Source: Ceratorhiza oryzae-sativae (lineage: Eukaryota > Basidiomycota > Agaricomycetes > Cantharellales > Ceratobasidiaceae). From it: DNA of 64,000 bases. Location of the stretch: contig JARWMV010000243.1 in assembly GCA_030998015.1 (NCBI GenBank), positions 1,176,001-1,240,000 of the forward strand, read 5' to 3'. How positions within the stretch are numbered: position 1 is the first letter of the stretch; each line of letters opens with the position of its first letter. Positions 14,617-30,603 of the stretch are shown piece by piece. The notes under the pieces were generated by a model, which worked only from the letters and a program-made list of their open reading frames with translations, was not told the DNA's origin and made no database searches. Both the position numbers and the translations under genes were made by a program.

Positions 14617-14992
14617 TGTTGACGATGACAAGTCAGGCGACAAGGAAAATAGTAAGAAAAGAAAAGAACTTGTATTTGACAAGAGGTCAAGTTCTTGAGG
14701 AGTCCTCTGCCAACTTGACCTGGTTTATATACATAGTACAAGCCACATCATAACAAACAAGTCTGTACAGTGAGTCACAACCAATAAGAGATAGAAGCAG
14801 TAGAAGCAACTGTGGAACTGCAGAATTTCACATCAGAGTTGAAATACATCTCAGTTATTGGTCCAGAACATCCCCTGAATCACATGACACAGATACACCA
14901 TAAAAGGCAAGTATGTTTTCAAGATGATCTCATAAAATGTAGTAAATCAAGAAAATATTATAGAGTGGATATATGCATGTCAGTTCATGACA
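14617..14992 (-). repeat. LTR, family A (3' LTR of A2)
   Basis: 376 bp, TG...CA ends. Same LTR as at 38754, 45323, 45952, 49530, 52726, 53156, 60455 and 61661. On the minus strand it holds TATATAAA followed about 33 nt later by CAAGAACTTGACCT, the presumed transcript start and self-priming segment. Confidence 0.9.
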
Positions 14993-15402
14993 CTTCCCCC
15001 CTTCAAGGCATGGGGGTCATGGGGTGCCTTTGGATGTGACTTGACATAGTCAGCAATGAGTTCTGGTGCATTCACCAGGTCATCATAAGTTAACCATTGT
15101 TGCTTGTTGTAGCTGAGCCATTTGATGTAGTATTTGAAGATGTTAGACCTTTTGTTGTATCGTGACTTTATGATCTGTTCCACTTTGAATTCTTCTTCCC
15201 CTTCAGGAGTTACCACAGGTGGTGGTGGGGGAACCTGATGGCCATAGGGGTCATCTTTATATCTGGTGAGAAGTGAAACATGAAACACTGGGTGTATTTT
15301 CATGGTTATTGGTAGGTCCAGTTTGAAAGCATGTGTGCCATGTTGTGCTACCACCTTGAATGGTCCAACTCTTTTGTGGGCCAGTTTCCTGGAGGCCTGT
15401 TG
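14980..15402 (-). pseudogene. A2 pol, C-terminal fragment (integrase end and chromodomain)
   Basis: Last part of A2 pol, cut from the rest (25667-28771) by insertion of C1. It holds the GPFKVVAQHG-like integrase C-terminal (GPY/F) region and a chromodomain (EGEEEFKVEQIIKSRYN, then YYIKWLSYN). Such chromodomains direct integration to marked chromatin in chromoviruses. The stop codon overlaps the LTR edge next to the polypurine tract. Confidence 0.85.
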
Positions 15403-15959
15403 TGTTATGACCCATCAAACGGAGATAACAAAACAACCAAATATTTTTACAGATTTATGGCATTTTTCCTAAGAAGAACAAGCCATAAACAAGGTCACGT
15501 GACCTTGGCGCTTAGCCAGCACTTATGGTGGTTACCCTGAACTTGCTCCAGCATTTCTCTCCATTGTTACTTGGAGTGAGGAGCGAGTTGTCACATGATC
15601 TCGGCGCTTATGGCAGGATCACGTGACCTCAGCACCTACCCCTCGGACCTTGCGCAGCTCTATAAGATTCAGAGCCACACAAACTTAAGACAAACAATTA
15701 CCTAACCCATAGTACTGTACATAACCTACACCTACTGCGGAGTGTGCTTAGATAATACGTCTGCAGCCACCGCAGCCACAGGCATATATAAGAAGGATAA
15801 AGCAAGACTGGACGCCTCAGCTTGCTTTATCTTGTCAACCACCATAGACCATAGCAAACACTGTAACTAGAACACTCAATACATACTGTATAGCACCAAA
15901 CTGTCAACACAGCCACTACTTAAGGTGCTTCACAAGGAAGCCTCCAGAGGGTCACGACA
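15403..15959 (+). repeat. LTR, family C (5' LTR of C1)
   Basis: 557 bp, 113 bp shorter than its partner because it has one instead of two copies of an internal unit with CTCGCTCC...GGAGCGAG inverted repeats and GTCACGTGAC palindromes. TATATAAG lies at 15785-15792; the self-priming complement AGCTTGCTTTAT lies at 15819-15830. Confidence 0.9.
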
Positions 15960-15979
15960 TTATAAAGCAAGCTCTTAAC
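15960..15979 (+). promoter_or_regulatory. Self-primer type primer-binding site of C1
   Basis: ATAAAGCAAGCT at 15962-15973, two bases inside the LTR, is the exact reverse complement of the LTR segment 15819-15830, about 34 nt past the TATA box. No TGG start typical of a tRNA primer site is present. Confidence 0.7.
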
Positions 15980-16079
15980 TTAACTAGTGGTGAACATAAG
16001 TATACTACACAGATACTAAGGGCTGAGTACACGAGAAACCAGCTAACTCCTGTGATACATAAGAGAACACAAAGAAACT

Positions 16080-17915
16080 ATGTCACAGAGACCACAAACT
16101 CAATCTCAAAGCAGAGTGGCAAATAGTAGGCCACAATCACCCAAACCCGTTGCTTCCCCAGAGGCTGAAGGTAACCCAGATGAGACCCTCCAAGGAATGC
16201 CAGGGGGGTTGCCACAAAACCCATGACCAGTGGCTCAACCTAACCCCACTTGGGCCCCCATCCTGGGAGGGGAAATAGGGGGAATACTGCTCTGCAGCCC
16301 TCAACCACCAATTCACCTGATAAATCCAGACCCAGAAGATATCTCAAATCCAGAGAGGGATGAGGTAGAAGATATGACCCGAACCATACACGAACAAGGC
16401 ACAGCCTTGGCGGAAGAGGCAAGGACACAACCCCAGCCAGGTTCCAGAACCATAGCCACTGCCAACCCTATTCACACCATTGCCACCACCATCAGGGTGG
16501 GGCTCAAGGAACTTAGAAACAATAACCATAGGGAACTAGAAAAGACAATCATGGGTATAAATCAGTGTCAAATATCACTAACCCGACAAGAAGGAAATGT
16601 GGACTGGATGGTAAGGTCAATGGAAACATCCAACAAAAATGTCCTCTATGTGGCAAAGAACCAGGACGACCTAAAAGCAGAAATGGGGAACCTGATAAAA
16701 GAATTAAAGGACATCTCCATGGAAATAAACCAGGTACTGGGAATGCAAGAGCAAAAGCTCGAAAGCTTAGAGAGGAAAACTGAAAACACAGGGGAGATCC
16801 TAATCGCACTAGAACAACGGGTAACCAATCTAGGAAATGAGCTCTGGAAAACAACTGAAGCAGGAAGGCCAAGGGAAAGGACAGAAGAAACCAGGGGAAG
16901 AACTAGGGTGGTCATAGGAAGCCCCTCACAATCCCCCTCAGCCTCCCCAGTACGAACACCCTTTCTGGGAAGAACCTTCCAGGCTGAGTCCACAATAAGA
17001 CCCTGAACAGAACCTCCATCCCAAGCAAACCAACCTACCCTTGCTGCAAACCACACTCCTAAGGAGGCGTGACTAGGGAGACCCAGCAAATTTAATGGGA
17101 AAAAGGGGAAGGAAGCAGAGAACTTCATAATCAGCATGGAACTTTTCTTTGCTGACTATGACAAATCAGCCTTTGATGACCAAAAAAAGATATCTGCTGT
17201 GTTAATGAACATGGAGGACAGGGAAGCGGCAAACTGGGCACAACCTTACTGCCGGAAACTACTAGCAGGCGAACACACAGGTATTCTTGCATCCTGGAAG
17301 GATTTCAGGAAGGGATTCCTGGATGCTTTTAACGACCCAGTCATAAAGGAAAAGACCATCCAGAAACTAAGGAAATTAACACAAACCAAGAGTGCATTGG
17401 ATTATGCTACCCAATTCTGGATCCTGATCCAAGAGGTAGACTGGAACCAGGAAGCCCTCAAGGACCAATTCAGGGAAGGGTTAAAACCCGAAGTACGACA
17501 AGAGATCTTAAGGATTGAAGTACTGGCAAATGAGGCTGAAGGTCCATCATATACCTTAGATCAATTAATTGACTTTGCCTGCAAAATGGACGACATGCAG
17601 TTTGTGAACCAGAAAATGAATGCAAGGACCAGCAACTCATCAAATTCAACCTGGGCACCAGCGAAATACAAACAAGGGGGGAACAAGCCTTTAGGGACCA
17701 GCGGCAAACAGGGGAATACCCAAACCAACAACATGGTAAGGATACCAAACAGTGAAAAGGACAGGCGAAGGAAAGAAGGACTCTGTATCAAATGCAGTAA
17801 ATCAGGGCATGTCCTGAAGGAGTGCCGAGGCCAGTGGACCTACGACAAAGCTAAGATACAAGGGAAGGCCAGCAGACAAGTTGAGGAAGAAAGCAGCTCT
17901 GAGTCGGAAAACTAA
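16080..17915 (+). pseudogene. C1 gag (nucleocapsid), three in-frame TGA stops
   Basis: Structural protein forming the virus-like particle. Reading starts at ATG 16080 (MSQRPQTQSQ) and continues in one frame to TAA 17913-17915, broken by TGA at 16224, 17004 and 17070. The N-terminal third is Pro/Gln-rich; 16560-16860 is a charged, coiled-coil-like stretch. The capsid-like core follows after the third stop (MELFFADYDKSAFDD onward, with FKEAFLDAF-like capsid helices). A CCHC zinc knuckle (CIKCSKSGHVLKEC) lies near 17785-17830. Each TGA fits a CGA arginine codon changed by one C-to-T step. Length without the stops would be about 611 codons. Confidence 0.85.
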
Positions 17916-17932
17916 TTGGTCCTACCACTTCC

Positions 17933-20900
17933 ATGTTGGAGGACCCCAATATAACCCCTACCACAGATGTATGTTACCTCAAGAAGTCTAGTAATCAATC
18001 AATAATATACACTACGGTAGAGGGAATCATGGAACCAGCAAAGATGCTGATTGACTCAGGATCTTCAACCAACTTCATCAATAAGGCCTATTCAAGGGAA
18101 AAGGGGATTCCAACCACTCCCCTCAAACACAAGAAATCAATTGTGGCCATTGATGGAAATGAAATCAAGGATGCCATAGAAGAAAGGGCAGAACTAAACA
18201 TCGAAGTGGAAGGGAAGACACTGAAATGCTCCCTTTATGTGATGACCCTAGGTGACACAGACATAGTCCTAGGGAAAGAATGGCTTGAAGAAGCAGAACC
18301 TATCATAGATTGGAAAGACCTTACCATCTCATACCCAGGCAAAATCAAGGCAAGGGCAGCAAGTGAAAGCCTACAAATCCCAGAAGAATTTAGGGATTTT
18401 GAAGACCTATTTGGGGAAGAAGGTTTCTGAGAACTTCCACCCCACTGAGGTAACCTAGACTTCAAAATGGACCTGATCAAGGGAGCGGAGCTGCCAAAGC
18501 CTGCAAAGAGGTACAGTATGTCACCAGCAGAAACAAAGGTGCTCAGGGAGTACCTAGAGGAGGAACTAAGAAACGGGAAAATAAGGCCCAGCCAGTCAGT
18601 TGTAGCTGCACCCTGTTTCTATGTGAACAAAGCAGATGGAGGGCTTAGGTTGGTAGTCGACTACCATAAGATGAATGACATCACCAAGCCAGACAGGTTT
18701 CCACTTCCAATCCAAATAGAATTGATTGAGAGACTGAAGGACGCAACCATCTATTCAAAAATGGATGTTCAATGGGGGTTCAACAACATCAGGGTAAAAG
18801 AGGGAGACAAATGGAAAACAGCTTTCAGGACAGGAGAAGGCCAGTTTGAATGCTTGGTCATGCCATTCGGAGTAAAGGAAGGACCAAGAACCTTTACAAG
18901 GTTCATGATGGAAAAGTTCCATGACATAATAGATGATTATGTGGTAATCTACATGGATGATGTACTAGTGTTTTCCAGAAACAGGGAAGAACATGTACAA
19001 CATGTCAGGGAAGTGTTAAGAAGAATGAGGGAAAACCACCTCTTCCTCAAACCACACAAGTGTCAGTTCTTTGTGAAGGAGGTAAGCTTCATCGGAATTG
19101 TCATATCCCCAGAAGGGATATTGATGGAAAAGGAAAAGGTAAAGGCAGTTCTAGAATGGCCAGAACCTAACACAGTAAAACAAGTCCAAGCCTTCCTAGG
19201 CTTTGTGGGGTTCTATAGAAGGTGGATAGAGAAGTTTAGTACCTTAGCCAAACCCCTCACAGACCTCACTCAAAAAGATGTCAAATTCCTGTGGGAAAGA
19301 AAACAACAGGAAGCATTTGAAGCTATCAAAGAAGCAGTAGCAAGAGAACTGGTCCTAATCCACCCAAACCCAAACAAGCCATACATACTGGAAACAGACA
19401 CCTCAGGAGTGGCCATGGGGGTGGTACTAAGCCAAAAGGGTGATGACAACTGATTGCATCCAATTGCCTTCCTATCAAAGAGCTTCACCCCACCAGAGAA
19501 AAATTATGACACCTACGACAAGGAGTTGCTTGCAATTGTTAGGTCCTTAGAGCACTGGAGGTTATACCTAGAAGGGACAGAGGAACCTATTGTGATATAC
19601 ACCGACCATAGGAACCTCCAGTACTGGCAAAATGCCCAGATGTGGAATAGAAGGCATGCCAGATGGTATCTCACTCTGGCACCCTTCAATTTTCAGATTG
19701 TGTATAGACCAGGGAAACTCTCACAGAAGCCAGATGCCCTTTCCAGAAGGAGCAACCATGGGGATACCCCTATGGAACCACAGATCATGATTCCAGAAGA
19801 AAAGTTCATAGGTTTCAGGGCAGAAGTACAGGGGAATTTCTGGGAAGAGCTTAAAGAAGCTCAGGAAGAAGACGAATCTATCAGATCCTTAAGGCTGAGC
19901 ATGGCAAATAAAGAACAACTACCGCCCTCAGTACAGAAGGAATTTAGACAGTACGAAATGAAGGAGGGCCTATTAAGGTATGATGATAGGCTCTACATCC
20001 TGGATGACAAGGACTTGAGGTTGAGTCTCCTTGAGGAGTGCCATGACGCCCCTGTGGCGGGTCATCAGGGACAAGCCTGAACACTAGAATTACTATCAAG
20101 GGATTACTATTGGCCAGGAATGAAGGCCCAAGTAAACCAATACATGGAATCTTGTGAAACATGTCAAAGAAGCAAAGGACACAAACAAGGCACCCCCCTG
20201 AAGTCCTTACCAATCCCATGGAAACCATGGGCAGATGTCACATATGACTTCATCATCAAATTACCTGTCTCAAAAGGGTACAACAGTATCTTGACAGTTG
20301 TAGATCACTTCTCCTGGCAGGCCCATTTTGTAACATGTCTGGAGAGCACCAATGCAGAAGAACTGGCAGAAATATTCATAAGGGAGGTATGGAGACATCA
20401 CAGGACCCCAGAAACCACTGTCTCAGACTGAGGGCCAACCTTTAACAGCCAATTCCTAAAAGCCCTATACAAAGGAATTGGGACAAAGCCCAGATTCTCC
20501 ACTGCCTTCCATCCAGAAACAGATGGTCTGTCAGAAAGGACAAATCAATGGGTAGAAGGGTTCTTAAGAACCTTCTGCAATTATAGACAAGATGATTGGG
20601 TAAAATGGTTACCCATTGCTGAATTCTGCCATAACAACCATGTAAATGCTACAACAGGACAAACCCCATTTGAAACGGTATATGGAAAAAACCCAAGATG
20701 GGCTGTCCAAGAGGGAGAAGAACCATCTGAGGCACCCGCTGCAGACAACATGCGTAATCAAATGGAAAAGGTATGGGACAAGGCAAGAGCCTCAATGGAA
20801 TTACACCAACAAATGGAAAAGAAAGGGAGGGAATTCAAGGTAGGAGACAAGGTTTGGCTGCTCCTAACAAACCTCTCGTCCAAGAGACCCTCCAAGAAAC

Positions 20901-21346
20901 TGGACAACCAAAAAGGGGGGCCTTTTGAAATCACAGAAAAGATCTCATCCCATGCATATTGCCTGGACCTACCTAAAACCATACGTGTACACAATGTATT
21001 CCATGTAAATCTCCTCTTGCCATTCACAGAAGATAAAGACTTCCAAAGAAGGCAGGCCAAACCACCACCAATCATAATGGAAGAAGGAGAGGAGGAATAT
21101 GAGGTGGACCACATTGCAAATTATGAATGGCGGAATGGCGAGCTGTTTTACCAAATCAGATGGAAGGGCTACGACCCAATAGAAGACACAATGGAACGTG
21201 CCAGCAAGTTTGCTGACATGAAAGAGGTTCTAAATGACTTGCAAAGGCACTTACCAGATGCACCAATGCCAGTCAAGACAAGTCAACACTCAGGTGACTT
21301 GAAAGGCAGGCCAAAGAGAACCAAACGAGGATCTGGAAAGCTTTAA
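17933..21346 (+). pseudogene. C1 pol: protease, reverse transcriptase, RNase H, integrase, chromodomain; five TGA stops
   Basis: Polyprotein that copies and integrates the element. It starts at ATG 17933, 17 nt after gag's stop and in a different frame, so it needs reinitiation or frameshifting. Domains in order: aspartic protease (LIDSGSSTNF near 18050); RT with palm motif VIYMDDVLVF near 18960; RNase H (ETDTSGVAMG near 19390 and YTDHRNLQYW near 19600); integrase zinc region (H..H then CETCQRSK, 20040-20180); DDE core from about 20235; GPY/F-like region; chromodomain (EEEYEVDHIANYEWRNG then YQIRWKGYD, 21090-21180). TGA stops at 18428, 18446, 19451, 20078 and 20429 stand at places where the family has Arg, for example PPHR and SDRG. 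Not functional as it stands. Confidence 0.92.
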
Positions 21347-21399
21347 AAAGAGCCATCCAGGATACCCAAGAAAGGCCAGAGCCTGCTCTACCACCTCAC

Positions 21400-22251
21400 A
21401 TGCACCACAATACACCTGCGAAACCCCAAAACATGCCTTTCATCACTCACCCAGTCGCACATCCCAACCGTTACACACCACTTGCTGAAAATCAGGTGGC
21501 CCCACTTTGGCAGCCACCCACCACTAGGCAGCCAGCACCCTACCCTGGCAGGGAAAATCGTCCTAAACCAGGGATGTACTGCTCCAGTGTGGAAGACGCC
21601 CAGAGGTACACCGAACGACTGTTGCCAGGGGCTAACCTAGTGTACATCCCAAAGAAGTTAAGGGATGAAAGGAACTGGATCAACGATGACAAGTACCTGG
21701 ATCCCAGGTTAGGGGTCCTGACATGGCATGGAAGCCGGAAGCCAACGACGAGAAACGCCTTGCTAAGAACACCAATGTATGTCATTGACAATATTGTGGG
21801 ACCAACAGTCGACATGGTGACCAAGGCAGCAAGACAACAGAGGAGGGCCACAGGCCAAATGGCAGATGGGGGGGACTGGGAGGTGGAGCACCAGGCCAAG
21901 GCATTGTTGGAAGAATGGAAGTTGACAGCTGCGCAGTATGTGGGACTGCTCGAAGCAACTACCACTGATGAGATGTTTACTGCTATCAGGACGAAGCAGG
22001 CAAACATGAGCGACTTCTGAAATTGGGTGAAGGTGCACCCAAACAAAAACACCAATTACAACACTGATATGACGAGCCTTACATCAAGCCTAGAATCACT
22101 GGTCGTGGCTGAGGAAGAAGCCAAGCCAGAAATAAAGGAACCCACCCTGGACCCAGCTGCGGAGAAAGCCAAACAGGACTGGGACCAGTGGGAAAACGAG
22201 CTTGTCGAAGCTCTGGAGGAGGTGCCACTGTTGGAACCAGCCCCCATATGA
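21400..22251 (+). pseudogene. C1 ORF X1, unknown protein, one TGA
   Basis: Begins with ATG 53 nt after the pol stop. 206 codons run to TGA 22018-22020, then the same frame stays open to 22251, for about 283 codons. The N-terminal 60 residues are Pro/His/Gln-rich; the middle has aromatic and basic residues (GMYCSSVEDAQRYTERLLPG, then RLGVLTWHGSRKP); the last 80 residues are acidic with a coiled-coil look (WENELVEALEEV). No domain is recognised. It is in the same direction as pol, converging on X2, whose stop codon is 87 bases away. It might be an accessory or capsid-like product of the Rep module, or an extension of the retroelement itself. I cannot assign a function. Confidence 0.6.
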
Positions 22252-22338
22252 CCACTTTGCCTCCCACGGATTTTCTCCCAAATGTATAAGAGTTTTTTTT
22301 TTTTACACATCAAACTTAATACATTTCCTTTTTACTCT

Positions 22339-22871
22339 CTATTTACGTTTGCCCTTGAGGGGCCAGGTATAGGGCTTCTTGCCTTTTTTATCCTTCTTAT
22401 TGGTCTGAACAACTGACTGGGTAGTGGGCTGCAGCCAAGGAGCCTCCCCCCCTGGGAAGTCAGCCATGTAGTTCTGGAAACACCCAGAACCAGACGCTGC
22501 AAAGGGTGAAGCCTCATCAAACAAGGGAGCAGAGCCCTCCTCAAAGAATTTGGCAAGAGCAGCCTGGTGAGACTGCTCCTCAAAGCACTTGTAGTCCTGA
22601 TCAACGAGCGCCCAGACACGCTCAAGGGTGGCCTCATGGGCCCGACCATCAAGGAGGATGCGCTCTTCTACAGAACAAGTTAGCTATGTGAGAACGATGA
22701 AGAACGAGCACATGTACCTGGCACCCCACAGAAGAACCAATCCCCGACACCTCCATAGAAGTCTTCAAGGGAGGTGTTGCAGATGACATCACAGTAGGCG
22801 CAGTACTCCCCCTCAGGGAGAGACCAGCAGGTGCAGTCAAGGGGATTGTAGTTAAGGGAAATAACGTGCAT
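22339..22871 (-). CDS. C1 ORF X2, antisense two-exon gene, unknown
   Basis: On the strand opposite to the retroelement. Exons 22871-22718 and 22667-22339 with a 50-nt intron (GTACAT...CTGTAG) give about 160 aa. Without splicing the frame stops at once; with it the frame is clean. The N-terminus is Cys/Trp/Tyr-rich (LDCTCWSLPEGEYCAYCDVI), with a possible Cys cluster. The middle is acidic and helical, and the end is basic (NKKDKKGKK, then LKGKRK), suggesting nucleic-acid binding or nuclear entry. No family recognised. No in-frame stop has accumulated although the neighbours on the other strand each carry TGAs. An intron in antisense would not be removed when the sense RNA is copied, so it can survive retrotransposition. 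Confidence 0.6.
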
Positions 22872-22974
22872 AGTAAAGACAGGATGAGGAAGGAAAACAA
22901 CAAAAACCACAAACATTAAAAAATCATGGTGCAACACAATAACTTGCACAAACATCAAAACAAGGTCTGGTCAG

Positions 22975-23110
22975 GTGACACCAACGGACACATGACCATC
23001 TGCCAGAAAACAAACAACAAAGCACGGGAATCACATGACCTAGCCTAGTCATGTGACCACCTGCCAGAAAACAAACAACAAAGCACAGGAATCACATGAC
23101 CTAGCCTAGT
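22975..23110. repeat. Tandem repeat with palindromic stem-loops upstream of the Rep-like gene
   Basis: Two copies of a unit of about 59 bp (from CTGCCAGAAAACAAACAAC to TCATGTGA or TCACGTGA), in direct order. Each contains TCACATGAC, an 8-nt spacer CTAGCCTA, then GTCATGTGA (perfect 9-bp stem) or GTCACGTGA (one mismatch). Further single TCACRTGA-like boxes lie just before the array and at 23282. The array lies in the gap between the divergent X2 and Rep starts. In CRESS-type genomes this gap holds the replication origin with iterons, so the position is suggestive. The TAATATTAC nonanucleotide itself is not seen. Confidence 0.65.
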
Positions 23111-23368
23111 CACGTGAATATATGCTATCCCCTAACTACCAGAGGGGTTGGAGAGGGGGCACCGACCAAAGTGGAGGAGTGGAGGCCCTGAGCGTAGCAA
23201 GGAGAAAGGCTGACGCAGGGGAACGCAGGAAGGGCACCCCTTGGAGATGTGTCATAACCAGCACAAGCCTACATCAGGAAACCACATGACCACAACAACC
23301 AGAGAGGGTATATCTAGGGGACACCTTTGGGGGTAAAAGGGGCTATCATCTCATGCCCTCCCCACAAG

Positions 23369-24682
23369 ATGCATCTACTTCTAAAAATACCAACAATGCT
23401 AAGTGAAGATGGCTTGAATGTGGGAACACCCCAGCCAAACAAATCAAGCACAGGGTGGAGGTCAGCATTGCCATCGCTGGTGCCCTCAGCATCAAGCCGA
23501 GCCCCCTCACCTGCTTCTATGCAGCTTATGCTGACAGATCATGGGTCCAAAGAGCTGACTGAAACCGCATGGGTCCCCCGATTCTGTGTCCAGACCAGGG
23601 CAGTGCTGCTGACCTGGTTGAAGCTACACGATCAGCCCTCAAGTGGGCTTGCCGCCCAATATGAGGTGTTCTGCTGCCACCAGCCCAATCACTGGGCAAC
23701 CTTAGCTGTGGTCGAACAGCACAACCCAGAGGAGCCGAACTACGACCCAACCCGGCCCCTGCACATCCACGCCCTCTCCATCAGTCAGGAACGGATGGGC
23801 AGGTGGAACACCCAGAATGTGGGGTTCTGGGACTTCGAGGGGCAACACCCCAACATATGGCCCAAAGACCTCAAGGACAGACCAGGAGGCAACCCAGCAA
23901 GGGATGCCTTCAACTATCTCTGGAAGGATGTTGGAGCTAATGGCGAGGAGATAGAGGATTTGATGGCAGGGGACCTGACCTTGGAAAGGTTGGAGGAGAT
24001 CTTGGTGAAGGGAAAGGGTGGAAAACAGTCAAGGATGGAGGCAGACTTGGAGGATGGGATGGAGATTGTTGCCTCAGCAACAAAACAGGAGTACTACCAG
24101 GCGTTCAAGCACCTCCGCCCCCTCCAGATGGTGACAACATGGAACTCAGTACGAGCATATGCCGAGTACACATACAAGGAAGACTGGGGTTGCATGCCTG
24201 CAATCCCTGTGGAGTTAGAGGTCCTGGAAGACCAGGAGCACATTGACCAAGCAGACAGATGATTTGCTGAGCAGGTCGAGAAGAGGGGAAGAGGGGTGCA
24301 CCATCGCATCCTGGTGATAGAAGGAGAAACTGGAATGGGGAAAACAGCATATGCACAATCCAAGGGCTGCCACAGCTGGATGTGCAATGTGTGGAATATG
24401 GGCAACTTGTCAGAAGATGCCAACATTTGGATCCTGGACAACATGGTCCAGTCAAATGGGAAGTACTCGCTCAAGGCCCTGAGCCAGTATGAGGTGGACT
24501 TCACAGGCAGATACACGCATGTGAAATCGATGAAGGTACAGCCAACAGTTATTCTGGGAAATAGCTGGTTGGCAATCATGAAATGTTGGTCGGACATAGA
24601 GGGGGAAGAAGGGGACTTATGGGTATCAAGAAATGTGGAATGGGTGTATGCAGGAGGAAAACCATTCTTTGTATTCCCTTAG
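23369..24682 (+). pseudogene. rep: C1 Rep-like protein: HUH endonuclease plus superfamily-3 helicase, one TGA
   Basis: Resembles replication initiators of CRESS-DNA (geminivirus/genomovirus-like) replicons, which nick an origin and drive rolling-circle replication. First ATG in the frame is at 23369. An RCR motif I-like VLLTW lies near 23605; motif II HUH is PLHIHALS, with the two His codons at 23762 and 23768; motif III is YLWKD with the catalytic Tyr at 23915 and Lys at 23924. The helicase has Walker A GETGMGKT (24323-24346), Walker B WILDN (Asp codon 24437) and motif C VILGNS (Asn codon 24560). A single in-frame TGA (24260-24262) separates endonuclease and helicase; the frame is otherwise open to 24682. 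It is not a Helitron protein: no Pif1/SF1 helicase follows. The coding match is by motif order; overall identity to any virus is unknown. In its present state it would be truncated. Confidence 0.8.
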
Positions 24683-24794
24683 AATAATTTACTGTACTGT
24701 ACAACTTCTGCTATGCCCATTCAAACAGTTGGGGCATTCTGAGAAGAAGCAGACAAATCCTCACCCCTAAATAACCTCCACAACAAAGAAAAGA

Positions 24795-24930
24795 AAAACA
24801 ATCTCATGTAACGGAGAGGTTAAGGGGTCTAGCCTGACTCGGCCTGACCTCATCAAACAATACTGAATCAGCTGAAAGGTTGTTGGTTCAAGTCCAGCGC
24901 CCTTAACCTCCTTGGTGCATGAGATTCCTT
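24795..24930 (+). other. tRNA-like / SINE-like hairpin with Pol III A and B boxes
   Basis: The B box GGTTCAAGTCC (24885-24895) sits in a perfect T-arm shape (GTTGG, loop, CCAGC). An A-box-like TAACGGAGAGG starts at 24809. Outer arms AATCTCATG (about 24800) and CATGAGATT (about 24918), and inner arms GGTTAAGGG and CCCTTAACC, pair into a long stem. It is not a regular tRNA because the arm after the T-arm does not match the acceptor stem. It lies between the Rep-like gene and the polypurine tract. Confidence 0.5.
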
Positions 24931-24991
24931 TTGCATAAGGAACTAAACCATGTCTTGAGGTCCCCCAAGACATGTCCAAAGGGGGGGATAA

Positions 24992-25661
24992 TGTTATGAC
25001 CTGTCAAATGGACATAACAAAACAACCAAATATTTTTACAGATTTATGGCATTTTTCCTAAGAAGAACAAGCCATAAACAAGGTCACGTGACCTCGGCAC
25101 TTAGCTGGCGCTTATGGTGGTTACCCTGAACTCGCTCCAGCATTTCTCTCCATTGTTACTTGGAGCGAGGAGCGAGTTGTCACGTGATCTCAGCGCTTAC
25201 AGAAGGATCACGTGACCTCAGCGCCTACGGTGGTTACCCTGAACTCGCTCCAGCATTTCTTTCCCTTGTTACTTGGAGCGAGGAGCGAGTTGTCATGTGA
25301 TCTCGGCGCTTACGGCAGGATCACGTGACCTCAGCACCTACCCCTCGGACCTTGTGCAGCTCTATAAGATTCGGAGCTGCACAAACTTAAGACAAACAAT
25401 TACCTAACCCATAGTACTGTACATAACCTACACCTACTGCAGAGTGTGCTTAGATAATACATCTGCAGCCACTGCAGCCACAGGCATATATAAGAAGGAT
25501 AAAGCAAGACTGGACACCTCAGCTTGCTTTATCTTGTCAACCACCATAGACCATAGCAAACACTGTAACTAGAACACTCAATACATACTGTATAGCACCA
25601 AACCGTCAATGCAGCCACTACTTAAGGTGCTTCACAAGGAAGCCTCCAGAGGGTCATGACA
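24992..25661 (+). repeat. LTR, family C (3' LTR of C1)
   Basis: 670 bp with two copies of the 113-bp internal unit. Directly preceded by the polypurine tract at 24978-24991. Confidence 0.9.
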
Positions 25662-25666
25662 TGTTG

Positions 25667-28600
25667 TGTCTGTATGTTCTTGGTATCAAGCCAGACTTTG
25701 TCTCCAACCTTAATAGCTTCTGGGGTCTGATGCTTCTGGTCATAGTATTCTTGATCCTCTGGTTTGCTATTTCCAGAGCTGCCTTAAGTTCGTCATGGCC
25801 CTTGTGGAGCCATTCTGCATGGTTGTCTGCTAAGGGGAGTTCTTGTTCCTCCCTGTCCCCAACTGCCAGCCTTGGGTGGAAACCATAGTTTGCAAAGAAT
25901 GGTGATTTGCCAGTCGAAGTGCTGACACGGTTATTGTAGGCAAATTCAGCCAATGGTAGGAGCAAGACCCAGTTGTCTTGCCGGTCTGGTACATAATGTC
26001 TGGTGTACCCTTCCACTACTTGGTTGGCCCTTTCGGGCTGGCCATCTGTCTGAGGGTGATATGCTGTGGAGTAGGAGGGTTTTATATCCAGACGTTTGTA
26101 TAAGTGCCTTAGGAATTTGGATGCAAAGTTGGGGCTGTGGTCTGAGATTGTTTTCCATGGTAACCCATGAAGTTTCCATACATATGTTAGGAAGAAGTTG
26201 GTGCAATCCATAGCACTGGCTTCTGATTGACATGGAATAAAGTGGACCATTTTTGTCAGGTGGTCGACAACTGTAAATATGGCGTCAAACCCCTCTGACA
26301 GGGGTAGCCCAGTGATCAGGTCATAGGTAATTTCCTCCCAAGGTTTTTCTGGTGCTGGTATTGGGTTTAGGAGCCCTGGGGGAACTTGGTTGCTGTGCTT
26401 GTTCCTGATGCATGACTCACAATGTGTGACATATTCGTTGACCGATTTTTTCATTGATGACCATGTGTATTTGTGATTTAGCAATTTGTATGTTCTGAAC
26501 TGCCCTGGGTGTCCTGCTGCTGGGCTATCATGACAGCTTTCAATGACCAGTTTGCAAAGTTCTTTGTTATTCGGGACATAGATTCTGCCCTTGTGTTGTA
26601 GAAGTCCTTCGTCCCATTCCCAATCTTTAACCTTCTCATTGTCATCTAGGGCTTTTAGCACTTTTGATAGGTGTTTGTCCCCTGGGATAGCATCCCTAAT
26701 GAGTTGTTCCAGGTCATGGTCTGTCGTGATTGCTTGCAGGCACAGTGATTTCAGCTCAAAAAATTGGTTTTGCACAAGCAGAGCTTGGCTCTCACCCCCC
26801 TCTTTAGGGATGTGTCTTGACAGCCTAGAGAGTATGTCTGCCCAGCCATTCTTTGCCCTTCGATGTATAGAATCTTGAATTTGAACCTGGATAGGAACTT
26901 GTGCCACCGTGTGACTTGACTATTCAGTGGCTGATTTGTCTTCCAATACTCCAAATTCTTGTGGTCACAGACAATGTTTACTGGGTGTTCAGCCCCTTCT
27001 AGTAAATGATGCCAGTGTTTGAGGGCTTTTATAATTGCCAGCATTTCTTTGTTGTAAATATCATAATTTCTTTCTGTTGGGACCATTGCCTTGGAGTAGT
27101 AGGAGATTGGGTGAAGCATTCCGTCTTCTCCATATTGCAATAATACAGCACCTGTGGTGTAGCCTGAGGCGTCTGTTTCCAGAATGAATGGTTTGCTGGG
27201 TTCTGGCTGAATTAGGAGGGGGGCTTCCTTTAATTTCTGCTTCAGCAGGTTCCATGCCCAATCCCTTTCTTCTGTCCATTCCCACTTTACATCCTTCTTG
27301 ACAAGTTCATAAAGACATTTTGTGATTTTTGAAAAGTCCTTTATGAAGTGCCTTAACCAATTTGCAAACCCCAGCCCTTCCAGGACTTTGGTTGGGTTGG
27401 TAGGGGTTGGCCATTCAACAGCCTTTTCAACCTTGGCTGGGTCTACTTTAATTCCCTGGGGAGTCACTACTATTCCCAGGTAGTCCACTTCGGTGACATC
27501 AAAAACACATTTCTCCAGGGTGCAGTATAGGCCAGCCTTTTGGAGCTGATGCAAGACTTCTCTGACATGTTCATCGTGTTCCTCTTGGTTTTTTGAGAAT
27601 ACTAATATGTTGTCCATGTAAATTACAACGTAAATGCCTTCAATGTCCTGGAATTCCTCTTGGATCATGGCCATGAAGGTTCCCAGTGCATTCTTTTGGC
27701 CGAATTGCATGACTAAGGGCTCATACAGCCCGTATTTGGTCTTAAAAGCGGCCTTCCATTTGTCTCCTTCCCAAATTCATATGAGGTTGAAACCCCACTT
27801 TAGGTCAAACTTGGTGAATATCTTTGCCCCATGCAAAGTTTCCACAATATCATTGATGCGTGGGAGTGGGTACACATTGGAAACAGTCATTTCATTTAGC
27901 TGCCAGTAGTCGATGCACATGTGCAGCTTTCCATTCTTCTTTTTAACAAATATGACTGGGGATGCCATTGGTGACCTTGAGGGTCTAATATGCCCTGCCT
28001 TCAATTGGCAGTCTAAGGTTTTGCGCAATTCTGCGTCTTCTTTGACACCCACACTGTATATTGGGCCATGCCTTGGTTTCGCATCTGGTTTCAGATCTAT
28101 CTCCATATCCCACTTCCTATGGGGTGGTAGTGGTTGGACATTGTCTTCTTCAGCAAATATTTTCTTGAACTCCCTGTACTTTACTGGAAGCGAGTCTAAA
28201 GAGTCCAACTGGAGCTCCTTGGGTTCATTCGCTCGCACATGTAAGGGTTTTGTAATGCAATGCTTCAGGCATATTGGTGAGTTGAACTTCATGTCCTTCC
28301 CATCCCAGTCAATGTCTGGATTATGGAATTTGAGCCATGATATGCCCAGGACTAAATCATTTTGCCAATGTTCACAACATAAGCACTGAGAATTTCCTGG
28401 TGCTCCTGAATGCACAACTCAAAGGTGCAATAATGGGTAACAGACCCAGAGTCAATCTCCCTTCCATTGATTACTCATAGTTTTTTTGGTGTTTTTAGGG
28501 AGATGGTAGGAATACAGTATTGTTTAACCAGCGCTTCATGTATAAATACTGATGTGGCCCCTGAATCAATCATGGCCCATCTGTTGAATTTTTTCATATT

Positions 28601-28771
28601 ATATGCAGACTTGTGTTTGGGGGTTGTGCACAGTGGGAATGCATGAAAGAAAAACTGAAGTTGTGATTGGTTTCCTAACAACATACATTCCATTCCCATA
28701 TTTTTATTTTCATTCTGTGCACTTTGTAACATAGCGCCCAAGACTGCCCCCCTAGCATGGTTTGAGCTCAT
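25667..28771 (-). pseudogene. A2 pol, N-terminal and central part
   Basis: Continuation of A2 pol on the far side of C1. It reads, from 28771 down, protease (MIDSGATSVF), RT with the palm motif degraded to YMDN (27610 region, GAC to AAC), RNase H, integrase zinc and DDE parts, up to the C1 insertion. In-frame TGA breaks lie near 28475 and 27777. A one-base deletion near 26870 shifts the frame (GCCC against GCCCC in A1). The start ATG overlaps the gag stop as ATGA, as in A1 and A4. Confidence 0.88.
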
Positions 28772-30084
28772 TCTTTTACTGACTCCTCGTCAGTTGTTTC
28801 TACATCCTCCACAACCGCTTTGTAACCTGACATCTTGGCTGAAGGGCATTTGGCAGCAATATGACCATGTCCTCCACAGTTATAGCAGGTATTCGTTCCT
28901 TTCCCTTTTCCTGCACTATCCAGGTCCATTGCATCTGGATCTTTTGCTTTGGGGGTTGCCAGCGGATGATTGTCCTTCTTTATGTCCTTGAAGGATTCTT
29001 GTACGTTGGAATTGCTACCATTGTAGCGAACAGTAGGGACAGTCAAGCCCTTGGCGTTGGGCCCAATGGCCACAATCTGGCCCTTGACTGCCCTGCTGTC
29101 CTTGATCTTGTATATCTGCTCCCCACTCTTGAATTTCTCCTTTTGGGGGTTGCTTTGTGAGGTAGCTGTTGGCCTGCTTGACGAGGCATTGTTGCTGCTG
29201 GACTTGTTACTCCCATGAGACGTCCTTTTGCTACTGAACGATATCAGGTGGCAGTCAATTTCCAAGGCTCACTGAGTGAGCTGGGCAAAGGTTTTGGTGC
29301 AGGGGTTGTAGTTTTGGGCCACCATGCTGTCTGTTACATCTGATGATAGACCATCATAAAACTGGTCATGCATGGCCACATCATTGTAGTTGAGCCCTGT
29401 TGAATATAAGTTGAATAGGGTGAGGTAATCCTGAACTGTCTTGGATTGTTTCAGTTTCTGCCACTTGTTGCGGTTATTTTTGGTGTGGTTCAAGTCCCCA
29501 TAACAGGTAGTAAACTCTTGCCAGAACAAGTTGGCATCATGAAGCCATGGGATCGCAGTTCCAGGGTTTAAGATTTCAAATTCTTCATACAAGTTGACCC
29601 ATTCAGCAGCAGATCCCTCAAGATAGGATGTGATAAAGGCGACCACTTGGTCAGCTGAGTGCCTGCTCATATTTGTATTGATGTATTGGGCACACACGAT
29701 TCTGAATGAAATAGCATCTTCACGCTTTGTACCATCAAATTTTTGTGGAGCAGCCATTTTAACTTTTGCAGTCGACCCACTGGAGGGAGTAGTAGCTGCT
29801 GGTTGTGGCTGAGTTGTGCTTGAGGAAGGTTGTACTTGGGCAACACTGGTGCTGCCTGAAGAGGTGTGTATTTGCGCTTTGATGTGTGTAATGGTGGTTT
29901 GAAGGATTGCTAACATGCCAACTAGGTTATTAACATTGGTGGCCAGCCTGGCCACATTGGCATTGATCTTTGCTTGGTTCGTTGTGAGCTTTGCCTCAAG
30001 CGAGTCTGTGTAGGTCTTGTTGTTATGTTCAATGTCCCCAATATTGTTTTGGAGGTTGTTGGTTCGTTCTTGCAGTTCATCCAT
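28768..30084 (-). pseudogene. A2 gag, main part
   Basis: Gag of A2 after the B1 insertion point; the first 25 codons are at 37078-37152. It carries the same coiled coil, capsid-like region and zinc knuckle (CYNCGGHGHIAAKC) as A1 gag, with one TGA at 29269-29271 in place of an Arg or Trp codon in the relatives (A1 has R, A4 has W). Confidence 0.88.
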
Positions 30085-30603
30085 TGTAAAGGTCACACCC
30101 ACACAACTAAGGCCAAACGCTTGTGAGGCGATGGCGGACCTATAGGCTATAACGGCTGGAGGTCAAACCGCAACGTCTAAGGTTGGACGCGCAGGGAGCG
30201 AGGGGTTTGGAGTGATGAGACGCTGGGGATAGAGTAGGGGCACTTGTTGCAAAGGCAACTGGGCAAATACCAAATGGCGTGGCGACCACTGGTGAGAAAC
30301 TGGATGGTAGAACAGGAGGTTGAGTTCTGAGGCTTAAGGCTCTCAGACTCTCCCTTATATATTCATGGCCGAGGCAGTACAAATCAAATACCAGGACCAA
30401 TAAGAAGCTAATAGTGCCATGTCACTACAGAACATTCCGGTAACACCAAACATTGAGTCAACAACAACAAGGTCACATGACATGAAGGTAAATAAACTGC
30501 ATATATCTGAATAAACAGGACTTGTCCAAAACATCGTAAAAAAGGAAGTTATAAAATATAGAAAATTCATAATAAAATCGTGCTCATGGTCTAGGCCATG
30601 ACA
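30085..30603 (-). repeat. LTR, family B (3' LTR of B1)
   Basis: 519 bp, TG...CA. Minus strand TATATAAG near 30355, then CTCAGAACTCAACC about 30 nt later. Confidence 0.9.

Follow-up and report, generated by a model that had tools for sequence, protein, structure and literature searches.

How does a gene resembling the replication initiator of single-stranded DNA viruses come to be part of a long terminal repeat (LTR) retrotransposon, and what might it do there? The question is raised by a stretch of 64,000 nucleotides from the basidiomycete Ceratorhiza oryzae-sativae (assembly GCA_030998015.1, contig JARWMV010000243.1, positions 1,176,001 to 1,240,000), here called the window. It contains element C, a chromodomain Ty3/gypsy LTR retrotransposon that spans 15403-25661. 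A block of 3.6 kb separates the pol stop codon of this element (21344-21346) from its polypurine tract, and the block holds an accessory gene (X1), an antisense gene (X2) and a gene for a protein resembling Rep of circular Rep-encoding single-stranded DNA (CRESS) viruses. A first-pass annotation proposed two origins: either capture of the module by the retroelement, which now amplifies it, or insertion of a Rep element into this copy alone. The first of these is supported by a gene order that many copies and a second family share. Taken as a whole, the X2-Rep module was probably captured by a chromovirus lineage and kept as a working gene of its own; capture followed by selective maintenance is, as a part of this explanation, very likely. 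The block and the structures that close the element are as follows:

21298..22020 (open reading frame, ORF), plus strand: accessory gene X1, first ATG at 21400, overlapping the last part of pol in a different frame
22339..22871, minus strand: antisense gene X2, exons 22871-22718 and 22667-22339, assigned by sequence reading
22872..23352, no strand: intergenic region of the divergent X2/Rep pair, TATA box at 23309
23353..24682, plus strand: Rep-like gene, ATG at 23353, in-frame stop at 24260-24262 in the window copy
24803..24925, plus strand: tRNA-like long hairpin with the B-box-like/T-arm sequence GGTTCAAGTCC, fold z -4.4
24978..24991, plus strand: polypurine tract AAAGGGGGGGATAA, directly 5' of the 3' LTR
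24992..25661, plus strand: 3' LTR, holding an extra 113-bp tandem unit

The LTRs, the target-site duplication (TSD), the polypurine tract and the 3.6 kb with X1, X2 and a Rep-like gene were thus correctly described from the window. X1 stops at 22018-22020 in the window copy and is open to about 318 amino acids (aa) in many others. X2 has a predicted 50-nt GT-AG intron (22717-22668) and encodes a protein of 160 aa whose N terminus is rich in Cys; the intron, being antisense relative to the genomic RNA, would be able to survive reverse transcription. Open copies of Rep, with frames of 429-453 aa, are present elsewhere in the genome.

The two origins predict different things about other copies, and these were searched for in the source assembly (48.8 Mb, 253 contigs). 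Among the best candidates scored, there are at least 126 matches to Rep, at least 131 to the C-terminal part of pol and at least 150 to X1, 144 of which were taken into the analysis of positions. X1 lies within 6 kb downstream on the same strand for 122 of the 131 listed pol matches and Rep within 8 kb for 92, with neither listed near nine. Seen from the 126 listed Rep matches, pol is found within 8 kb upstream of 94 and X1 within the same distance upstream of 108, while 18 have neither in the lists. Two sets of 30 loci were fetched, each containing the window's own copy. In the Rep set, Rep is followed by the tail and at least the start of the LTR in 28 loci (the exceptions are L003 and L021); in the pol set, all 30 have at least part of X1 beside the integrase and 29 have X2 (the exception is L032). 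The same junction of polypurine tract and LTR, identical or nearly so, recurs in 33 of 35 loci, which fall into two subfamilies with different LTR starts.

Five of the 18 Rep matches without a listed pol or X1 were inspected. Two of these lie at contig ends (L012 and L015), one is cut at the start of Rep (L010), and the remaining two (L017 and L018) prove to carry X1; each of the five runs on into the tail and an LTR. The 5' ends of eight stretches are more varied: a full 5' LTR is present in L069 and L073, the end of an LTR in L072 and only the leader in L068, and the other four have neither. The missing 5' ends may reflect nested insertions, truncation or a misjudged position. The element of L073/L009 is flanked by the matching TSD CATAT, and that of L069/L017 has no matching TSD.

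Among the loci examined, pol-X1-X2-Rep-tail-polypurine tract-LTR is therefore the common form of the family. Searching the genome with X1 and Rep, as the first-pass annotation had suggested, and with pol shows that several elements share the order pol-X1-X2-Rep-LTR. The insertion of a Rep element in one copy alone, under which the other full-length elements should end soon after pol, is refuted: they do not do so at the loci examined, the Rep matches number at least 126, and the order and junction recur in most of the loci fetched.

Is the cassette confined to one recent family? This was ruled out by loci whose integrase is 60-70% identical to that of the window, five of which were read downstream (C20:290798, at 69%, was left out). 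Three of them (L076, L077 and L078) form a second family with an integrase about 70% identical and with the same cassette order and orientation. X1 is recognisable in 3/3 loci (43-50% aa identity over the best stretch), as is antisense X2 (39-49%), and Rep is found in L076 and L077 (2/3), where the core is 60-75% and the N terminus 39-47% identical. In L078, nested LTRs come before the end of the fetched stretch. The other two loci, L079 and L080 (integrase 62%), have a relative of X1 at 22-24% identity (E values 5e-10 and 3e-6). Rep has no match there at E <= 1, and the one trace of X2, a fragment in L080 at E 0.38, is not credible. In L080, X1 is soon followed by the polypurine tract and what resembles the start of an LTR; in L079 these are separated from X1 by over 1 kb of DNA that seems not to code for protein.

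A midpoint-rooted integrase tree with 17 rows places both Rep-bearing families together with moderate support (84/84), although it carries a long-branch warning. The integrases of L079 and L080 (rows L084 and L085) stand apart from them, and four gypsy stretches from elsewhere in the window lie further out. Given that the relatives L079 and L080 have X1 with no detectable X2 or Rep, X1 seems to be older and X2-Rep a later gain. The simplest order of events has X1 first and X2-Rep next, before the two Rep-bearing families split; loss of X2-Rep in the branch of L079 and L080 would also account for the pattern.

Presence in two families does not by itself mean that the module is useful, and the ratio of nonsynonymous to synonymous substitution rates (dN/dS) was used to examine this. 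For the Rep core, dN/dS is 0.06 between L061 and L062 (synonymous divergence, dS, 0.55), lies at 0.06-0.13 in all 15 cross-subfamily pairs (dS about 0.5-0.8) and reaches 0.21-0.30 for L062 against subfamily 1. Ratios so far below 1 across subfamilies argue that the block is not a chance ORF. For X1, the values are 0.17-0.25 across subfamilies and 0.40 for L076 versus L077. Rep and X1 are clearly under purifying selection.

Several ratios pull the other way. Rep has dN/dS of 0.33-0.57 within subfamily 1, which is expected where many copies are decaying, and 0.67 for L076 versus L077. Exon 2 of X2 gives 0.15-0.16 for the window or L004 versus L064 and 0.32 for L064 versus L076, and also 0.44-0.46 for L061 and L062 versus L064, 0.52 for the window versus L076 and 0.99 for L076 versus L077. 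With values as mixed as these, constraint on X2 is less certain, and selection on this gene is weaker or less certain than on its neighbours.

These ratios bear directly on the view that the downstream block is a rolling-circle or single-stranded-DNA-virus-like element that was inserted once in a master retroelement and has been a useless passenger since. The compact divergent X2/Rep pair with its intergenic region does resemble an ambisense CRESS genome, and the X1-only relatives without X2-Rep fit an insertion. However, Rep ratios of 0.06-0.13 over such dS amount to long selection, the block occurs in two families whose integrase dS is saturated, and free X2-Rep copies were not found among the five of 18 isolated Rep matches that were inspected. 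An idle passenger is thus distinctly improbable.

Capture and maintenance have not tied the module to a single pol sequence. Integrases of elements of differing types are separated by a dS of only 0.02-0.07, versus about 0.9-1.5 for X1, and the copy on C34 has an integrase 96.4% identical to that of the window, while X1 is 68.7% and Rep 83.8% identical. Near-identical pol joined to very different X1 and Rep indicates that the module has been exchanged between elements, with a break near the pol stop codon. Template switching during reverse transcription would explain the exchange, and gene conversion is also possible. A sharp recombination border is seen in L031-L060, where the integrase is 95-98% identical to that of the window and the next gene is about 70% identical in some elements. 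Between elements with differing downstream modules, integrase identity is 96-98%.

The identity of the Rep-like protein rests on its motifs, which in the window copy lie as follows:

23603, plus strand: start of the motif VLLTW
23759..23779, plus strand: HUH motif LHIHALS, both His in 36/36 loci
23909..23929, plus strand: motif III FNYLWKD (YxxK), Y and K in 36/36 loci
24323..24346, plus strand: Walker A GETGMGKT, T kept in 0.69 of loci
24425..24442, plus strand: Walker B, IWILDN in the window, DD in 21/36 loci
24542..24562, plus strand: motif C PTVILGN, N in 34/34 loci covering the motif

Across the family, the motifs follow one another as VLLTW, LHVHALS, (T)RFWDFEGQHPNI, FNYLWKD, GETGTGKT, IWILDD and PTVILGN, which is the order of geminivirus and genomovirus Rep; a RFWDF...HPNI stretch resembles the GRS element. 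Mean conservation of the Rep core is 0.86, versus full retention of the two His, the Tyr and the Lys. Six motifs in this order at similar spacing occur in 0 of 200,000 shuffles of the natural open relative L062, for a pattern that was picked post hoc with the protein already known. In L062, residues 239-335, ending at Walker A, align with positions 11-106 of the 107 of PF08283 (Gemini_AL1_M) at a sub-threshold E value of 0.058.

The points on the opposite side have to be set against these. The second D of Walker B (kept in 0.61) and the T of Walker A (kept in 0.69) are frequently lost. The PF08283 match is seen in just 2/8 members, and a genome search with this model gives three weaker places (E 0.5-6), none of which is among the listed Rep places. 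PF00799 (Gemini_AL1, the HUH domain) has no match, and its controls are also silent. No Rep that was tried has a significant profile match or a significant sequence match in the Protein Data Bank (PDB), and searches of plasmid and phage proteins returned matches at chance level only. In IMG/VR and GTDB, two short peptide patterns each retrieved no Rep relative, the CRESS content of IMG/VR being uncertain. Lastly, the N terminus of the protein lies in another frame than the HUH and helicase core, to which it might be linked by a frameshift or by an intron of roughly 49 nt.

Other searches gave the same picture. PHROGs has nothing for the two Rep pieces of the window. Among loci retrieved from IMG/VR by motif pattern, two had no Rep in the frames listed, and in 15 the matches fell in frames of 12-43 residues and are attributable to chance.

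The reading of HUH plus superfamily 3 (SF3) helicase in the first-pass annotation therefore holds in part: at the level of motifs, HUH and after it the SF3 set of Walker A, B and C are present and conserved, while significant profile or sequence matches are lacking, and the label Rep is for this reason a motif-level call. Could the protein instead be an ATPase with coincidental HUH-like motifs? The lack of a significant profile match agrees with this, as does the predominance of generic P-loop models among the weak Pfam matches in the helicase region. It would nevertheless have to explain six motifs in Rep order and spacing, against none in the post hoc shuffles, catalytic residues kept in 36/36 loci and a nearly full-length PF08283 alignment at the expected place, and it is very improbable. 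From its motifs, the protein is likely to be a true HUH-SF3 Rep.

A single continuous Rep frame from 23318 was considered and rejected for the N terminus, where constraint apparently sits in the frame of ATG 23353 instead: over the first 70 or so codons, dN/dS is 0.17-0.37 in this frame versus 0.73-1.36 in the frame of the core. Both frames are visible at 23353-23560 of the window, where the conserved-ATG frame looks constrained and the Ser/Pro-rich frame that runs into the HUH core does not. If a sense intron joins the two parts, splicing of the genomic RNA has to be avoided, as it is in retroviruses.

What would a retrotransposon do with such a protein? It can be proposed that a chromodomain Ty3/gypsy lineage already carrying X1 downstream of pol would have gained a divergent two-gene module (antisense X2, an intergenic promoter region and Rep) from a geminivirus- or genomovirus-like or related rolling-circle replicon. 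The module's own TATA promoter may drive Rep, a putative nickase and helicase, whose substrate would be the extrachromosomal circles of the element, with one or two LTRs. A step of rolling-circle amplification or of circle maintenance would then lie between reverse transcription and integration. Conservation of the nicking residues favours a catalytic action on DNA, for which the element's own circular complementary DNA (cDNA) would be the nearest substrate. That Rep acts on the DNA of the element is a tentative proposal with rather less than an even chance. It is more doubtful whether there is a cycle of two phases, RNA and DNA, in which Rep nicks and unwinds circular cDNA for rolling-circle amplification, a hybrid that the first-pass annotation had called conceivable; that such a hybrid has lasted while two or more families of the element diverged is as doubtful.

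The search for a replication origin speaks against this proposal. A stem-loop of CCCCT-loop-AGGGG is conserved in the X2-Rep intergenic region; its fold is no more stable than those of shuffled sequences (z 0.14), and neither strand of the element contains TATTAC. The stem-loop was accordingly rejected as a CRESS origin, being conserved but without excess folding stability. In L064 and L065, a stem-loop block CTATCCCCTAACTACC..GAGGGG is present twice in this region.

The main rival to action on the element's DNA is manipulation of the host. Geminivirus Rep acts on host cell-cycle control, and the captured Rep could likewise raise the supply of deoxynucleotides and S-phase functions, which would aid reverse transcription and integration; X2 would be its partner in regulation. 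This is compatible with a Rep under strong purifying selection in an element where no origin is recognisable, and with an X2 that is small, Cys-rich and divergently placed. The intergenic region also shares the sequence TCAYRTGA with the LTRs, so that co-regulation is possible: the element has 12 copies, all in the LTRs or the X2-Rep intergenic region (4), versus a mean of 0.5 after base shuffling. Another 29 sites occur elsewhere in the window, many of them clustered as in LTRs, and the intergenic region further contains a 61-bp tandem repeat (22989-23117). A purely regulatory role, however, would not need HxH and YxxK, which are retained in every locus, and manipulation of the host is on the whole unlikely.

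The same residues bear on a further possibility, namely a role of the captured Rep in immunity, through interference with single-stranded DNA mycoviruses that infect the host, to the benefit of the host or of the element. A protective role has been suggested for endogenous viral sequences in passages of PMC3198968. Yet an interfering protein need not retain all catalytic motifs, and the gene is kept by a retroelement and not by a host locus, which makes this explanation highly improbable.

LTR retrotransposons and rolling-circle replicons are usually regarded as separate. If the captured Rep is indeed under selection within a Ty3/gypsy element, fusion of the two is possible. It would also offer a testable account of possible roles for extrachromosomal LTR circles, and a route by which genes of single-stranded DNA viruses could spread through fungal genomes.

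The retroelement that carries the module has the following further parts:

15398..15402, no strand: left copy of the TSD TGTTG, by sequence reading
15403..15959, plus strand: 5' LTR, TATA box at 15785
15962..15973, plus strand: candidate site of self-priming ATAAAGCAAGCT, exactly complementary to LTR 15819-15830
17073..17915, plus strand: gag, capsid part (PF03732, 3e-11)
17903..18430, plus strand: aspartyl protease (PF08284, 5.3e-11)
18449..20080, plus strand: reverse transcriptase (RT) and RNase H (PF00078 7.4e-33, PF17919 3.6e-15, PF17917 1.7e-24)
20081..21346, plus strand: integrase, zinc domain first, SH3 and chromodomain last, by Pfam
25662..25666, no strand: right copy of the TSD TGTTG, by sequence reading

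The 5-bp TSD TGTTG thus flanks element C on both sides. Gag, protease, RT, RNase H and integrase stand in Ty3 order and are followed by a chromodomain, as in Ty3/gypsy chromoviruses, and the LTR pair, TSD and polypurine tract complete the structure. Within the integrase, the zinc domain matches PF17921 (4.1e-12) over 20081-20428, and 20432-21343 matches PF24626 (Tf2-type SH3) and the chromodomain PF00385 (9e-6, 25.9 bits versus a cutoff of 25.1). In the pieces scanned, Pfam gives no match for the DDE core on its own, and the pol frame is interrupted by stops. The sequence ATAAAGCAAGCT, just 3' of the 5' LTR, is apparently the match expected for a self-primed chromovirus, a reading modelled on the mechanism of Tf1 and Tf1-type chromoviruses; the LTR of the diverged family (L081) contains the identical AGCTTGCTTTAT.

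Both LTRs start with TGTTATGACC and finish with GACA. They are 95.5% identical over 556 aligned bases, with 24 transitions and one transversion, and 23 of the 25 differences are C/T or G/A changes fitting CpG loss, which indicates methylation-driven decay and not ordinary drift. Element C is apparently nested in a minus-strand gypsy element of greater age, which has parts at 14617-15402 and 25662-30162 and relatives near 39-43 kb and 54-60 kb of the window. The tRNA-like hairpin between Rep and the polypurine tract occurs in both subfamilies (L061:422-544) and in the diverged family (L081:133-254). As a tRNA gene it was rejected, as neither ARAGORN (on the window by default, and with introns allowed) nor Rfam called it; at low threshold ARAGORN draws irregular cloverleaves on the tail, which have no evidential value.

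Compared with known systems, element C is like the fungal chromoviruses in gag, protease, RT, RNase H, integrase, chromodomain, LTRs, 5-bp TSD and polypurine tract, and differs from them by the 3.6 kb of X1, antisense X2 and Rep before that tract. In a chromovirus survey (PMC3248453), the terms 'helicase' and 'additional ORF' are absent from the text, and its passages name no Rep. Extra ORFs downstream of pol are also carried by the LTR retrotransposons of bdelloid rotifers, whose captured ORF3s, in passages of PMC5408684, are env, DEDDy, GDSL, CC and TM; 'Rep protein' and 'rolling-circle' are terms absent from that text. The passages of PMC3411680, PMC3248453 and PMC5408684 describe no Rep in an LTR retrotransposon, nor did a search by term of parts of the open-licence PMC literature bring one to light.

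The nearest case there is that of the Terminons, giant Penelope-like retroelements of bdelloid rotifers, for which passages of PMC6431247 report rolling-circle Rep ORFs and suggest circular intermediates. Element C has Rep ORFs in common with them, whereas Terminons are not LTR elements, reach up to 40 kb, are telomeric and have other accessory genes. Element C is not itself a Terminon, as its RT is not Penelope-like: it matches PF00078 and belongs to a gypsy pol, in an element with integrase and LTRs.

With Rep of Geminiviridae and Genomoviridae, the protein shares the order HUH, YxxK, Walker A, B and C and the sub-threshold Gemini_AL1_M match. It differs in being borne by a retrotransposon, with no significant sequence match and no nonanucleotide stem-loop origin found. 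Helitrons encode a RepHel protein of about 1500 aa with a superfamily 1 (SF1) helicase; the Rep frames of 429-453 aa with SF3-type motifs, and the LTRs, set element C apart from them, Helitron ends not having been searched. Passages of PMC6431247 supplied part of this definition.

A transposon of the type found in Tuber melanosporum, which in passages of PMC3198968 has 37-bp terminal inverted repeats (TIRs) and a transposase gene, was likewise rejected: element C has LTRs and pol instead, and a constant Rep-tail-LTR junction, no separate search for TIRs having been made. As far as the descriptions in these passages allow a comparison, the Tuber transposon and the fungal endogenous Reps like that of SsHADV-1 have one feature in common with element C: in each of them, a geminivirus-like Rep has been amplified in a fungal genome.

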